Assembly (NCBI RefSeq): GCF_900167935.1
Contig: NZ_FUYL01000002.1
Span: 124,001-188,000, forward strand
From: Maribacter arcticus
GTDB lineage: Bacteria; Bacteroidota; Bacteroidia; Flavobacteriales; Flavobacteriaceae
Reading direction: 5' to 3'
Length of the DNA: 64,000 nt
A program made the position numbers and the translations under genes. The notes under the pieces are model-generated. The model was not told the DNA's origin, searched no databases, and saw nothing but the letters and a program-made list of their open reading frames with translations. The first letter of the stretch is position 1. Each line of letters starts with the position of its first letter. Positions 36,586-39,869 of the stretch are shown here, piece by piece.

Positions 36586-36948
36586 ATGAAGTATACAATT
36601 GTACTGCTTACATTTTTAATGTTCTCATATAGCAGTTTTAGCCAAAACGAAGTCAGAGATATGAAACCTGGTGATATATTATTTATAAGTAAAGATTCAA
36701 ACACTCCATTTAAACATCTCTATTTTCCAAAGCCCAATTTTATAATTAAACGCGGTTCCATTGCCAATTACAAAGGCTTAAATGGAATGCATGTACAAAT
36801 TGAAGCCATAACAGACGAATCTATTGCTAGACTCATCCCTTTAAATGGTAAAAAATTCTTTAATATATTTTCATACGTGAATGCTGACCTAAAAAGCGCG
36901 TTGAACAATAAGGAGCTAAAGCAATTAAACTCTAGTCAAAAATCTTGA
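36586..36948 (+). CDS. Small secreted protein of unknown function
   Basis: 120 aa. Signal peptide MKYTIVLLTFLMFSYSSFSQ cut after residue 20. The mature protein begins NEVRDMKPGDILFISKDSN, then FPKPNFIIKRGSIANYKGLNGMHVQIEAI, and reads like a single small beta domain with a basic, helical tail. I do not recognise the family. Divergent from the tetR operon by 226 bp and followed by a strong terminator, so it is a single-gene transcript. Confidence 0.75.
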   Translation: MKYTIVLLTFLMFSYSSFSQNEVRDMKPGDILFISKDSNTPFKHLYFPKPNFIIKRGSIANYKGLNGMHVQIEAITDESIARLIPLNGKKFFNIFSYVNADLKSALNNKELKQLNSSQKS

Positions 36949-36973
36949 TTTAATAAATCAATAGAAATTGATG

Positions 36974-37020
36974 AAAATCCTAAACGGCACTTTTTATTAC
37001 AGACCATTTAGGATTTTTTT
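36974..37020 (+). terminator. Rho-independent terminator
   Basis: Perfect 11-bp stem AAAATCCTAAA (36974-36984) with TTTAGGATTTT (37007-37017), 22-base loop, followed by more T. Follows the secreted-protein gene. Confidence 0.8.
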
Positions 37021-37087
37021 TGCTAATTAATGCACACTAAAATAACATTAACCGATACAAGTAAAATGTCGTCAAAATATTTAAGAT

Positions 37088-37405
37088 ATGATATTAGGGT
37101 ACATTGCGGTGAAAAATAAAAAGCAAGCTAAAGAGATAGCAAAATTACTTTTAGCACAAGATTTAATTTATAGCGCAAGTATTTCAACTAAAAAAGTATT
37201 TAGTAAAAATTTAGATGCGGGTGAAATAAGCTATGAAAAACAAACAATCATAGAAGGGAAGACGAAGGCTTTATTATTTAGTGCTATTAATCAAATTCTT
37301 AGAATCACTTATCCAGAAAATATGCCTATGCTTTATGCCGTACCAATTGTTTATATGGATGCAGAACAGACCCAAACTTTACGTGATCAAACAGCCAAAG
37401 TATAG
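37088..37405 (+). CDS. CutA/PII-like small protein in the SbtA locus
   Basis: 105 aa. Ferredoxin-like alpha-beta pattern of the CutA/PII superfamily: ILGYIAVKNKKQAKEIAKLLLAQDLIYSASI, EKQTIIEGKTKALLFSAINQILRITYPENMPMLYAVPIVYMD. CutA proteins form trimers. In cyanobacteria the bicarbonate transporter SbtA is controlled by the trimeric PII-like SbtB of similar size, so a regulatory role for this protein toward SbtA 1.5 kb away is a reasonable inference. The stop is TAG immediately followed by TAA. The last 80 bases overlap the 3' end of the LysR gene on the other strand. Confidence 0.65.
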   Translation: MILGYIAVKNKKQAKEIAKLLLAQDLIYSASISTKKVFSKNLDAGEISYEKQTIIEGKTKALLFSAINQILRITYPENMPMLYAVPIVYMDAEQTQTLRDQTAKV

Positions 37406-38189
37406 TAATAATTGGCAGTGCTTTGACCGGGATAATTTGAGCACTTTTGTTCATGAGTTCATTTTTTAACCCAATAATAGGCAATATTGAAAAACCTAAA
37501 CCAGCAATAACCGCCTGCTTTACCGCTTCATTTGAAGTAAGCTCTATTTTTTTTCGAACGTCAAACTTATTCTTAATTATAAATTGCTCCATGGCAACTC
37601 TTGTTGCAGATCCCATTTCCCTATAAATTAAAGGCGACTGTTCAACAATATTCTTTTTGGTAAGTCGGGCTTTATTCAAGCCACGTTTACCTGCAATTAA
37701 ATAAAGTTTATTCTGCATCAACTCTACACGTTCAATATTTAATTTTTTAGGCAACATAGAGACCATTCCGAAATCAACCTTGTTCAACTCTAAACTTTCA
37801 ATTACCTGAGCCTTATTTGTAACGGCTATCATTAAGTCGACACCTTTATTATTACTCATAAAATTAGATAACATATAAGGCAATACATATTTACCGGTAG
37901 ATACTATTGAGAATTTTAATTTACCAACCAACTCACCTTTGTAAGCGAGCGTCTTATAGTTTATCGCATCTACCTCATTTAATATTTTTTCCGCATCTAA
38001 CGCAATTTCTTTTCCGAAATCTGTTACATAAAGCTTTCTACCAACAACCTCGGTAAGTGGAATGGAAAATTGGTCTTGAAAGTTTTTTAACTGTATCGAT
38101 ACTGCTAACTAAGTTAAATGCAGCTCCTCATAAGCTTTCGTAATACTTTGGTTTTCAAATATTTTTAACTAATGCAAGGTATAATTCAT
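37326..38189 (-). pseudogene. LysR-family regulator with two in-frame TAG codons
   Basis: From the ATG at 38189 the frame reads MNYTLH, TAG (38169-38171), LKIFENQSITKAYEELHLT, TAG (38109-38111), then LAVSIQLKNFQDQF, PLTEVVGRKLYVTDFGKEI and a full LysR ligand-binding domain to 37326. Both TAGs sit where LysR proteins normally have glutamine (LHQL and LTQPAVS). Between LKIF and ENQS about four residues usual for the family are missing, and the C-terminus is short and unlike the family end. The simplest reading is a decaying gene. LysR regulators control inorganic-carbon genes in cyanobacteria, so this one may have governed the neighbouring sbtA. Confidence 0.8.
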
Positions 38190-38285
38190 AAATTATTTTT
38201 ATGCCTAACATAATAGATATAAATAATAATTTATGAATTAAAAATGTAAGATTTGCGTCAGCATTTAAATAATAAAAAACATTTT

Positions 38286-38600
38286 ATGAAATCAGCAGTA
38301 AAAAATCCTGTTCAAACAATTAGAACAAAACAAAAAATTCAACTTATTGATGGACAATTTACCGTCTCAGAAGCCAATGATGTTATTCAATCATTAATCA
38401 ATGAAAAAATAAATTTTCACAAACTACAACGCTTAACTATGTGCGAAGGTTTTTCTGGAGCCAACACCAAATTTCCTGATAGTAGAATTACAGAATTAGA
38501 GAATGATAAATTGGCAGCAAAACAGTTTTTTAAACAAGCGTAGTCTAAAGGGGCTACTATTAAAATAAATGGTGTTTTAGAAATTTCAATCAACGAATAA
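38286..38600 (+). pseudogene. Small conserved protein of the SbtA locus, interrupted by TAG
   Basis: From ATG 38286 the frame gives 85 residues (MKSAVKNPVQTIRTKQKIQL, FTVSEANDVIQSLINEKINFHK, RITELENDKLAAKQFFKQA), then TAG at 38541-38543, then 18 more in-frame residues SKGATIKINGVLEISINE before TAA at 38598. The tail looks coding and completes a helix-strand ending, so the TAG probably interrupts a protein of about 104 aa. If the TAG is the true end, this is a normal short CDS 38286-38543. Function unknown. Divergent from the LysR gene. Confidence 0.55.
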
Positions 38601-38638
38601 AACGAGACTCTCAATTATATTATTACTAACAATACTAT

Positions 38639-38803
38639 ATGCATAAAAAGGCAAACCTCTCTAGAATAGCAACATTTTTAATGATGAGCATATTAATCCT
38701 TGCCTCATATAAAAATAACGGACTCTTTTTAAACCATATATTATTTTCTTGTGGCATTATTTCCTTAATTCTCTTTATTAAAACAAGAGGAAACGACCAA
38801 TAA
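38639..38803 (+). CDS. Tiny two-helix membrane protein upstream of sbtA
   Basis: 54 aa from ATG 38639 to TAA 38803. Sequence begins MHKKANLSRI, followed by a first hydrophobic helix (TFLMMSILILAS), a short polar YKNNG turn and a second helix (HILFSCGIISLILFI), ending KTRGNDQ: a basic N-terminus and basic C-terminus with two membrane segments. No known domain. It sits between the interrupted small gene and sbtA on the same strand, 103 bp before sbtA. Could be a small transporter-associated subunit, but this is a guess. Confidence 0.5.
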   Translation: MHKKANLSRIATFLMMSILILASYKNNGLFLNHILFSCGIISLILFIKTRGNDQ

Positions 38804-38817
38804 ACCTTGATTAATTC

Positions 38818-38880
38818 AACTCCTCTATATTTTAATTACAAGGGAGTTTTCATTTCATGAACATTATTCCAAACTCCCTT
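38818..38880 (+). promoter_or_regulatory. Competing hairpins in the sbtA upstream region
   Basis: AAGGGAGTTT (38840-38849) can pair perfectly over 10 bp with AAACTCCCTT (38871-38880), or over 6-7 bp with upstream AACTCC (38818-38823). The upstream pairing followed by TTTT would act as a terminator for the tiny gene; the downstream pairing would sit in the sbtA leader, 26 bp before its ATG. Confidence 0.4.
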
Positions 38881-38906
38881 TCACCTTTCTTTTTCAATAT
38901 AATTTT

Positions 38907-39869
38907 ATGGATTTAAACTTATTGTTAGATAACCTGACCAACCCCGCTCTGCTCTTTTTCTTTCTAGGTGTGATAGCAGTTCAATTAAAGAGCGACTTAG
39001 AAATACCCCCAAATTCATCAAAATTCATTTCTCTGTATTTAATGTTCTCCATAGGGTTTAAAGGTGGATTAGAACTTTCTCACAGCAATTTGGATATAGA
39101 AATATTATGGTCTCTATTATTCGGGGTCTTTCTAGCACTTTTTGTACCCATCTATACTTATTTTGCACTAAGAACAAAATTTAGCGTTGCCAATTCTGGC
39201 GCAATAGCGGCTTCATACGGCTCTGTTAGCGCAGTAACCTTTGTAACTGCCGTTTCATTCTTAGAATTGGAGCAAATAGAATTTGGCGGGCATATGGTTG
39301 CAGTTATGGCGCTAATGGAAGCTCCCTCAATAATAGTGGGTGTATTACTCATGTCATATTTTCAAAAAAATAAGGAATACAAAATTTCATTACCAAGTGT
39401 ATTTAAACATTCACTCACTAACGGTAGTGTACTATTAATCATAGGAAGCTTAGTTATTGGGTTCTTGGCAAGCGATCAACACGCAAGAGGAATTGAGCCA
39501 TTTACTACAGATATTTTTAAAGGATTCTTAGCTGTTTTTTTATTGGACATGGGAATTACAAGTGGCAAAAAATTGGCTGATTTCCTTAAAAAAGGCTGGT
39601 TTGCATTCTTATTCGCAATAATTATCCCTTTAATAAACGGTTGCGTAGTAGCTGTAATAAGCTCTGTATTTACCGAAAGTATTGGTAATCGATTTTTGTT
39701 TGCTATACTAGCCGCTAGTGCATCTTATATAGCGGTGCCGGCTGCCATGAGATTGGCCGCCCCCAAAGCGAATCCTAGCTTATATTTACCAATGGCTCTC
39801 GCAATCACTTTTCCCTTTAATATTACCATAGGTATGCCCTTATATTTATATATTGTTAATTTATTTTAA
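38907..39869 (+). CDS. sbtA: Sodium-dependent bicarbonate transporter (SbtA family)
   Basis: 320 aa, family-typical, with about ten transmembrane helices. Opening LLDNLTNPALLFFFLGVIAVQLKSDLEIP and LYLMFSIGFKGGLELS are strong SbtA marks, as are AASYGSVSAVTFVTAVSFLE and, in the second half, VFLLDMGITSGKKL and ASASYIAVPAAMRLAAPKANPSLYLPMALAITFPFNITIG. SbtA imports bicarbonate with sodium; in heterotrophs it may feed carboxylases in anaplerosis. The gene looks intact, unlike its LysR neighbour. Competing hairpins lie in its upstream region. Confidence 0.9.
   Translation: MDLNLLLDNLTNPALLFFFLGVIAVQLKSDLEIPPNSSKFISLYLMFSIGFKGGLELSHSNLDIEILWSLLFGVFLALFVPIYTYFALRTKFSVANSGAIAASYGSVSAVTFVTAVSFLELEQIEFGGHMVAVMALMEAPSIIVGVLLMSYFQKNKEYKISLPSVFKHSLTNGSVLLIIGSLVIGFLASDQHARGIEPFTTDIFKGFLAVFLLDMGITSGKKLADFLKKGWFAFLFAIIIPLINGCVVAVISSVFTESIGNRFLFAILAASASYIAVPAAMRLAAPKANPSLYLPMALAITFPFNITIGMPLYLYIVNLF

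Follow-up and report, generated by a model that had tools for sequence, protein, structure and literature searches.

Beside the sbtA gene of Maribacter arcticus, two neighbouring genes carry three in-frame TAG codons, two of them in a LysR gene and one in a small gene. The question is whether these codons are recoded or whether the genes that carry them are decaying next to an intact transporter gene. A reading of the sequence alone had favoured decay of the locus by C-to-T changes and had named local amber suppression and sequencing error as alternatives. We conclude that the LysR gene is a pseudogene and that the small gene has a recent-looking truncation, that this is not recoding, and that the locus is a clear setting for the replacement of a regulator. 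A candidate for stop-codon recoding is thereby removed, and a testable case of regulator replacement stands in its place.

The window is the whole stretch of 64,000 nucleotides that was analysed. It belongs to a genome (G000) of 4.21 Mb in 22 contigs, rated 100% complete and 0.09% contaminated, and the sister genome is that of M. orientalis DSM 16471 (G019). The gene order at the locus is CutA-like (+), LysR (-), small gene (+), 54-aa ORF (+) and sbtA (+), with the following features.

37088-37405, + strand: CutA-like gene, intact, convergent with LysR (Pfam CutA1, 8.3e-06)
37326-38189, - strand: frame of the LysR (CbbR/CcmR-type) pseudogene (Pfam LysR_substrate, 8.7e-23, in the open part)
37405-37406, - strand: junction of the 128-nt LysR deletion (relative to M. 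orientalis), C-terminus gone; abuts the stop codon of the CutA-like gene
38106-38108, - strand: LysR codon after the second TAG, TTA; Pro in 29/29 relatives with a residue there
38109-38111, - strand: second in-frame TAG of LysR, in a Gln column (29/29)
38156-38157, - strand: junction of the 12-nt LysR deletion in the helix-turn-helix, common to M. orientalis
38169-38171, - strand: first in-frame TAG of LysR, in a Gln column (29/29)
38199-38223, + strand: putative operator TTATG-N5-CATAA-N3-ATATAAA, 9 nt off the LysR start codon
38286-38540, + strand: small partner gene, 85 codons up to the TAG (96% identity to M. orientalis over 85 aa)
38541-38543, + strand: in-frame TAG of the small gene; a stop in no aligned homologue, AAG in the sister
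38544-38600, + strand: remnant of the small gene past its TAG, 18 codons and TAA, the second beta strand in the model of an intact relative
38639-38803, + strand: 54-aa ORF, shared by several SbtA loci of Maribacter; absent from M. orientalis, not found in G013
38907-39869, + strand: sbtA, intact gene for a Na+-dependent bicarbonate transporter (Pfam Sbt_1, 1e-115; dN/dS 0.055)

Lesions of the LysR gene

The sequence-only reading had placed the start codon of the LysR gene at 38189 and its TAG codons at 38169-38171 and 38109-38111, where LysR proteins normally carry glutamine. Both the coordinates and the glutamines were borne out. All 29 homologues that reach the two columns have Gln in both, encoded by CAA in 18 and CAG in 11 at the first column and by CAG in 18 and CAA in 11 at the second. 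The alignment has 30 homologue rows, one of which is a contig fragment without the N-terminus, so that 29 are informative; outside these rows, among the 35 LysR places listed, stand the window itself, the dead M. orientalis copy, G084, and fragments of G020 and G009. The window LysR is 81-83% identical to seven intact Maribacter orthologues. The missing residues that the earlier reading had remarked on correspond to the 12-nt deletion, by which four residues of the helix-turn-helix are gone. The odd C-terminus, also remarked on there, corresponds to the 128-nt 3' deletion relative to the sister, which takes about the last 41 codons, and it is odd because the frame runs on into the antisense of the convergent CutA-like gene. 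With the frame broken at sense-codon columns and further disabling deletions beyond the stops, the LysR gene of the window is well shown to be a pseudogene. At 38106-38111 there are adjoining C-to-T changes relative to the relatives, including a CC-to-TT pair, too few to test. CC-to-TT pairs are often linked to UV damage.

The M. orientalis orthologue of this LysR has the same 12-nt deletion and neither of the window TAGs. Its private lesions are a one-base insertion near the start, through which the frame meets a TGA, a GGA codon turned into TGA, and a frameshift within a run of A; it still has the C-terminal stretch that the window LysR has lost. One common lesion with private lesions on top of it indicates that the damage predates the split of the two species and then continued separately. 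As a partly different set of lesions killed the orthologue in the sister, the death of LysR is not a sequencing artefact.

The transporter gene has been retained. In the comparison with M. orientalis, dN/dS is 0.055 for SbtA and 0.267 for LysR (186 codons), and finite values for intact neighbours run from 0 to 0.316, the last being that of a 195-aa ORF beside tag, which lies above the dead LysR. Nonsynonymous to synonymous differences are 33:29 in LysR vs 7:33 in SbtA (Fisher p = 4e-4), and LysR against five pooled flanking genes gives p = 2e-6, with the 195-aa ORF, the TetR gene (dS saturated), a 120-aa gene and a 124-aa gene outside the pool. Since the LysR dN/dS is below 1, LysR was under some constraint for part of the time since the split. 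Synonymous divergence is low, 0.16-0.19, in the 120-aa gene, the small gene and sbtA (window 36586-39869), and the values for ABC, tag and aat are 0.45-0.58. This unevenness hints at recombination between species, which may blur dN/dS rates in adjoining genes. The proposal that the locus was decaying by C-to-T changes stands for LysR only. Decay of the entire SbtA locus is rejected, since it still has an intact and strongly constrained SbtA, an intact CutA-like gene and the operator.

Two smaller genes of the locus can be followed in other Maribacter genomes. In many SbtA loci the CutA-like gene is convergent to LysR, and in G021 and G035 it looks split or incomplete (L069, L070, L113 and L114). 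The CutA fold is similar to those of PII and SbtB, and the CutA-like gene may be an SbtB-like partner of SbtA. The 54-aa ORF (38639-38803) has 66-77% identity in six other Maribacter loci; in M. orientalis the gap between the small gene and sbtA is 81 nt and lacks this ORF.

The small partner gene and the question of recoding

The small gene was read correctly from the sequence, with ATG at 38286, TAG at 38541-38543 and 18 further codons before TAA at 38598-38600. The accompanying claim that every TAG is one transition from CAG is true of the two LysR codons and not of this one. From the 33 listed places of the small gene, 30 were fetched, one being the window itself. In the 29 aligned rows, the TAG column has R 15, Y 5, K 4, F 2, L 1, T 1 and E 1, that is, Lys, Arg or Tyr in 24/29, with AAG in the sister, and neither Gln nor a stop in any row. 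The T row (L029), an isocitrate-dehydrogenase-like reading in a wrong frame, should not be counted, and the homologue in the E row (L030) is a weak one. Because the column is never Gln and the sister has AAG, a uniform change from CAG to TAG fails as an account of the three codons; the C-to-T route holds for LysR, with its two Gln columns turned into TAG and the adjoining Pro codon turned into TTA, and not for the small gene. We looked for homologues that end at the same TAG, and no aligned homologue does. A programmed stop in the small gene is rejected on this ground.

Modelled with a mean pLDDT of 87.8, the intact protein of the sister has a strand at residues 15-26, helices at 27-53 and 62-86, and a strand at 91-101. 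The TAG takes away this last predicted strand, with I94 and G96, which are invariant in 30 rows. Up to the TAG, the small gene differs from that of the sister by 3 nonsynonymous and 8 synonymous changes, giving a dN/dS of 0.085 from only 11 differences, and this constraint makes the truncation look recent. One TAG is the sole disabling change seen, and the stop is unique to the window. The aligned relatives indicate that a 104-codon partner gene was shortened here by a nonsense mutation.

The family to which this protein belongs is about 104 aa long, with a beta-alpha-alpha-beta model and a KINFHK motif invariant in 30 rows. Its members accompany SbtA as well as dab modules (window 38286-38600, L111-L190), and some loci have two copies (L121, L125, L128 and L129). 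Two intact relatives gave zero NCBIfam matches up to E 1, two of four members had Pfam matches, both of them below threshold (0.016 and 0.034), and Foldseek gave no match in the PDB better than 0.14. A known family is rejected for the members tried, which have zero Pfam or NCBIfam matches over the cut-off.

Could the three codons still be read through? If TAG were decoded, locally or genome-wide, both proteins would be made whole, and the LysR frame is indeed open for 260 codons past its second TAG, with Gln at both TAG columns in the relatives. Clustering of TAG is above chance: nowhere else in the 64 kb does a TAG split a frame with at least 60 open codons on each side, and this at the same time speaks against general decoding of TAG. 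As the earlier reading had maintained, TAG is a normal stop elsewhere, ending 10 of the 59 window ORFs that reach 120 aa or more, and genome-wide recoding is unlikely. Local amber suppression, its proposed alternative, is contradicted on several sides. The search for a tRNA with a CUA anticodon found 0 among 37 tRNAs (ARAGORN typing), which come from 150 scored of 318 candidates and so leave room for an aberrant tRNA, and RF1 is present, with prfA over the cut-off. No aligned orthologue has a stop at the TAG columns of LysR or the small gene, and the small-gene column is never Gln. With parts of the helix-turn-helix and the C-terminus deleted, readthrough would still give a defective LysR, and the sister orthologue is dead without these TAGs. 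Recoding is rejected on the tRNAs found, on RF1, on the use of TAG as a stop and on the residues in the three columns, and readthrough is extremely unlikely.

Errors of sequencing or assembly are highly improbable as the origin of the stops. The genome is 100% complete with 0.09% contamination in 22 contigs, LysR has several independent lesions, one of them common to a separately sequenced species, and TAG splits no other frame in the window. The small-gene TAG is one base off the sister sequence and a second assembly of the species was not found, so that an error deserves somewhat more weight for the small gene alone. Alternatively, the pieces may still work, as an effector-domain-only LysR fragment starting at TTG 37931 and an 85-residue small protein. 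This would agree with the 201-aa open frame with its substrate-domain match and with the constraint on the small gene up to its TAG. However, a frameshift breaks the same LysR domain in M. orientalis, and the small protein would lack the predicted beta strand bearing the invariant I94 and G96. We regard working pieces as very unlikely.

A second LysR gene and a putative operator

The same genome has an intact LysR, 69% identical to that of the window, with a partner gene at G000:C13 386507-387829, followed by dabB and dabA. M. orientalis has a matching intact LysR-partner pair with dabB-dabA. The dabA gene has a Pfam DabA match, and the membrane protein gene of this second module is presumably dabB. 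Genes that flank the module are adjacent in G013, G005, G006, G007, G014 and G030, and the module, of about 6.4 kb, separates them in G000 and G019; in G003, G016, G018 and G021 the 1.5 kb that were fetched showed no downstream flanking gene. In a LysR tree of 75 rows, made by a quick method with SH-aLRT supports only, the dead copies lie within the Maribacter SbtA clade (9 rows, support 100) and are joined to each other at 76, and the dab-linked LysR of this genome pairs with the M. orientalis dab copy at 99. By path, the next nearest to that pair are Eudoraea, with two rows, and Pareuzebyella, followed by a Maribacter MAG (L118), and the dab copies of G005, G007, G010, G014, G029, G030 and G034 group with Allomuricauda. 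We read these data as pointing to gain of the dab module in the common ancestor of both species. Elsewhere, at G010:C1 809315-811530 in a one-contig, 81% complete genome, DabA lies in three pieces, either a broken gene or a sequencing error.

Two LysR genes in one genome are the exception. This LysR (E 1e-60) was found in 73/299 genomes of the family sample, and only G000 has it in two places. An internal stop occurs in 3 of the 74 LysR places: G000 with 2 TAG, G131 with 1 TAG (C514 12832-13749) and G122 with 1 TAA (C295 8762-9679). Among 100 relatives, LysR is open in 10 SbtA-only and 7 dab-only Maribacter with a match (in G020 in two contig pieces). The seven genomes found with both transporters and this LysR (G000, G019, G006, G130, G205, G213 and G247, the last with a partial SbtA) all showed exactly one intact copy of it, and G079 has both transporters without a LysR of that kind. 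G009, a MAG that is 85% complete, was counted apart. Its SbtA-linked LysR is complete, and a second LysR is present as an open C-terminal piece, 73% identical to the dab type and ended by the contig edge; DabA was not found in this incomplete MAG, which may have two live LysR copies or be contaminated. As two LysR places are rare (1/73 LysR genomes, plus G019), it is a single lineage that links redundancy to loss.

The putative operator gives the two modules a common element. Its best match is 9 nt off the LysR start codon in 76/78 loci, a count without the two M. orientalis loci. With a weight matrix trained on 77 other loci, excluding the window and M. orientalis, the window operator scores 32.1 vs 3.2 for the best match elsewhere in the 64 kb; the M. 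orientalis SbtA operator scores 39.0 and the own dab locus 38.9, and the best of 40 shuffled 5-kb stretches reaches 4.7. Dab modules without an adjoining LysR also carry the operator in G006 (36.1), G130 (41.8), G205 (29.1) and G213 (35.4). Modules in genomes without this LysR (two in G079, one each in G073 and G090) do not have it, with scores of -10.6 or less. For the orphan SbtA of G247 the score is weak, at 7.8, and the second DabA of G006 has no operator by the matrix. The comparisons that use the four LysR-less dab modules are small, with Fisher p = 0.03 to 0.05. The operator pattern was built from relatives and two own sites, so its two exact hits in the genome arise by construction; with one mismatch it has 5 genome matches vs 3 for a reversed control. 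Best pattern scores are 12 to 17 in real loci and up to 14 in shuffled ones, and because these overlap, it is the fixed 9-nt offset, more than the score, that carries the operator result.

We consider it likely that the SbtA-linked LysR was made redundant by the gained dab-linked paralogue, which probably now controls SbtA in trans. The ancestor of this strain and M. orientalis would have gained a LysR-partner-dabB-dabA module at another site. With two LysR copies acting on one operator, the SbtA-linked copy would have become spare and lost its value. A 12-nt deletion would then have hit its DNA-binding domain, and each species would have broken it further, while SbtA and its operator were retained and the intact dab-linked LysR probably drives SbtA in trans. 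The lesions, the intact second copy, its insertion between genes that adjoin each other in six relatives, the constraint on SbtA and the conservation of the operator sequence are observed, and from them we infer a causal role of redundancy in the loss of LysR and binding of the SbtA operator by the dab-linked copy.

Alternatively, LysR may have decayed when regulation of SbtA was no longer needed, with constitutive expression and no handover. Loss of LysR and its small partner gene together while SbtA stayed would fit this, but the operator is kept in both species, with scores far above the shuffled best, and four other genomes with one LysR carry it at a LysR-less dab module. We rate decay of LysR without a handover as rather unlikely. 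The reading that we prefer, replacement by the dab-linked LysR, can be taken further. The gained LysR may have recognised the SbtA operator and taken over in trans, the resident dying and the operator being selected, and a single LysR per genome that serves SbtA and DAB through one 25-bp operator may be a common rule of Flavobacteriaceae. This extended proposal is tentative and in our view slightly more doubtful than secure. Counting against a handover are the possible two live copies of G009, a window operator that scores below that of M. orientalis, the weak site of SbtA in G247, the second DabA of G006 without a site, the support of only 76 for the dead copies, and a LysR dN/dS that is below 1 and below that of the intact 195-aa ORF. 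What the analysis does offer is a defined putative operator through which a single LysR is linked to the inorganic-carbon modules of Flavobacteriaceae, SbtA as well as DAB.

Comparison with known systems

A bias of sbtA towards genomes that carry proteorhodopsin has been reported for marine Flavobacteriia (PMC5932025). One known system close to the second module is that of the MpsAB inorganic-carbon pumps (PMC6689103). DAB is the name for pumps of this type. Like DAB/MpsAB, the second module has a dabA gene and a gene for a membrane protein that we take to be dabB; unlike a plain DAB/MpsAB, the Maribacter module (contig C13, outside the window) brings its own LysR.

Bacterial pseudogenes can form after the gain of a redundant copy. 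The window LysR resembles ordinary pseudogenes in its nonsense codons, in the in-frame and frameshift lesions, in private lesions over a common one and in the intact paralogue elsewhere. It differs from them in that the target gene and the putative operator have been retained, so the death of a resident regulator need not unplug the transporter.

The intact paralogue matches the PDB sequences 5y2v (5e-47, 'Rubisco operon transcriptional regulator') and 5z49 (CmpR, 9e-24), which are among 4 PDB sequences under 1e-20. Its best NCBIfam is CbbR at 171.9 bits, below the cut-off of 450, so that it is not the CbbR equivalog itself. By these matches, the LysR is of the CbbR/CcmR/CmpR kind. Among the open-licence titles and abstract openings listed, none describes such a LysR regulon in Flavobacteria, which is weak evidence of absence. 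In Synechocystis, CcmR/NdhR is a repressor of its own gene, of sbtA and of dispersed carbon-uptake operons (PMC3401165). By analogy with this precedent, one flavobacterial LysR could serve SbtA and DAB through one operator. As with CcmR/NdhR, the LysR is tied to SbtA and to distant carbon-uptake modules through a site beside its own gene. Unlike CcmR/NdhR, it is found in a Bacteroidota host, its modules are sbtA and dabBA, it is accompanied by an unnamed small partner protein, its control through the operator is putative, the sign included, and in the Maribacter lineage the copy linked to SbtA is dead.
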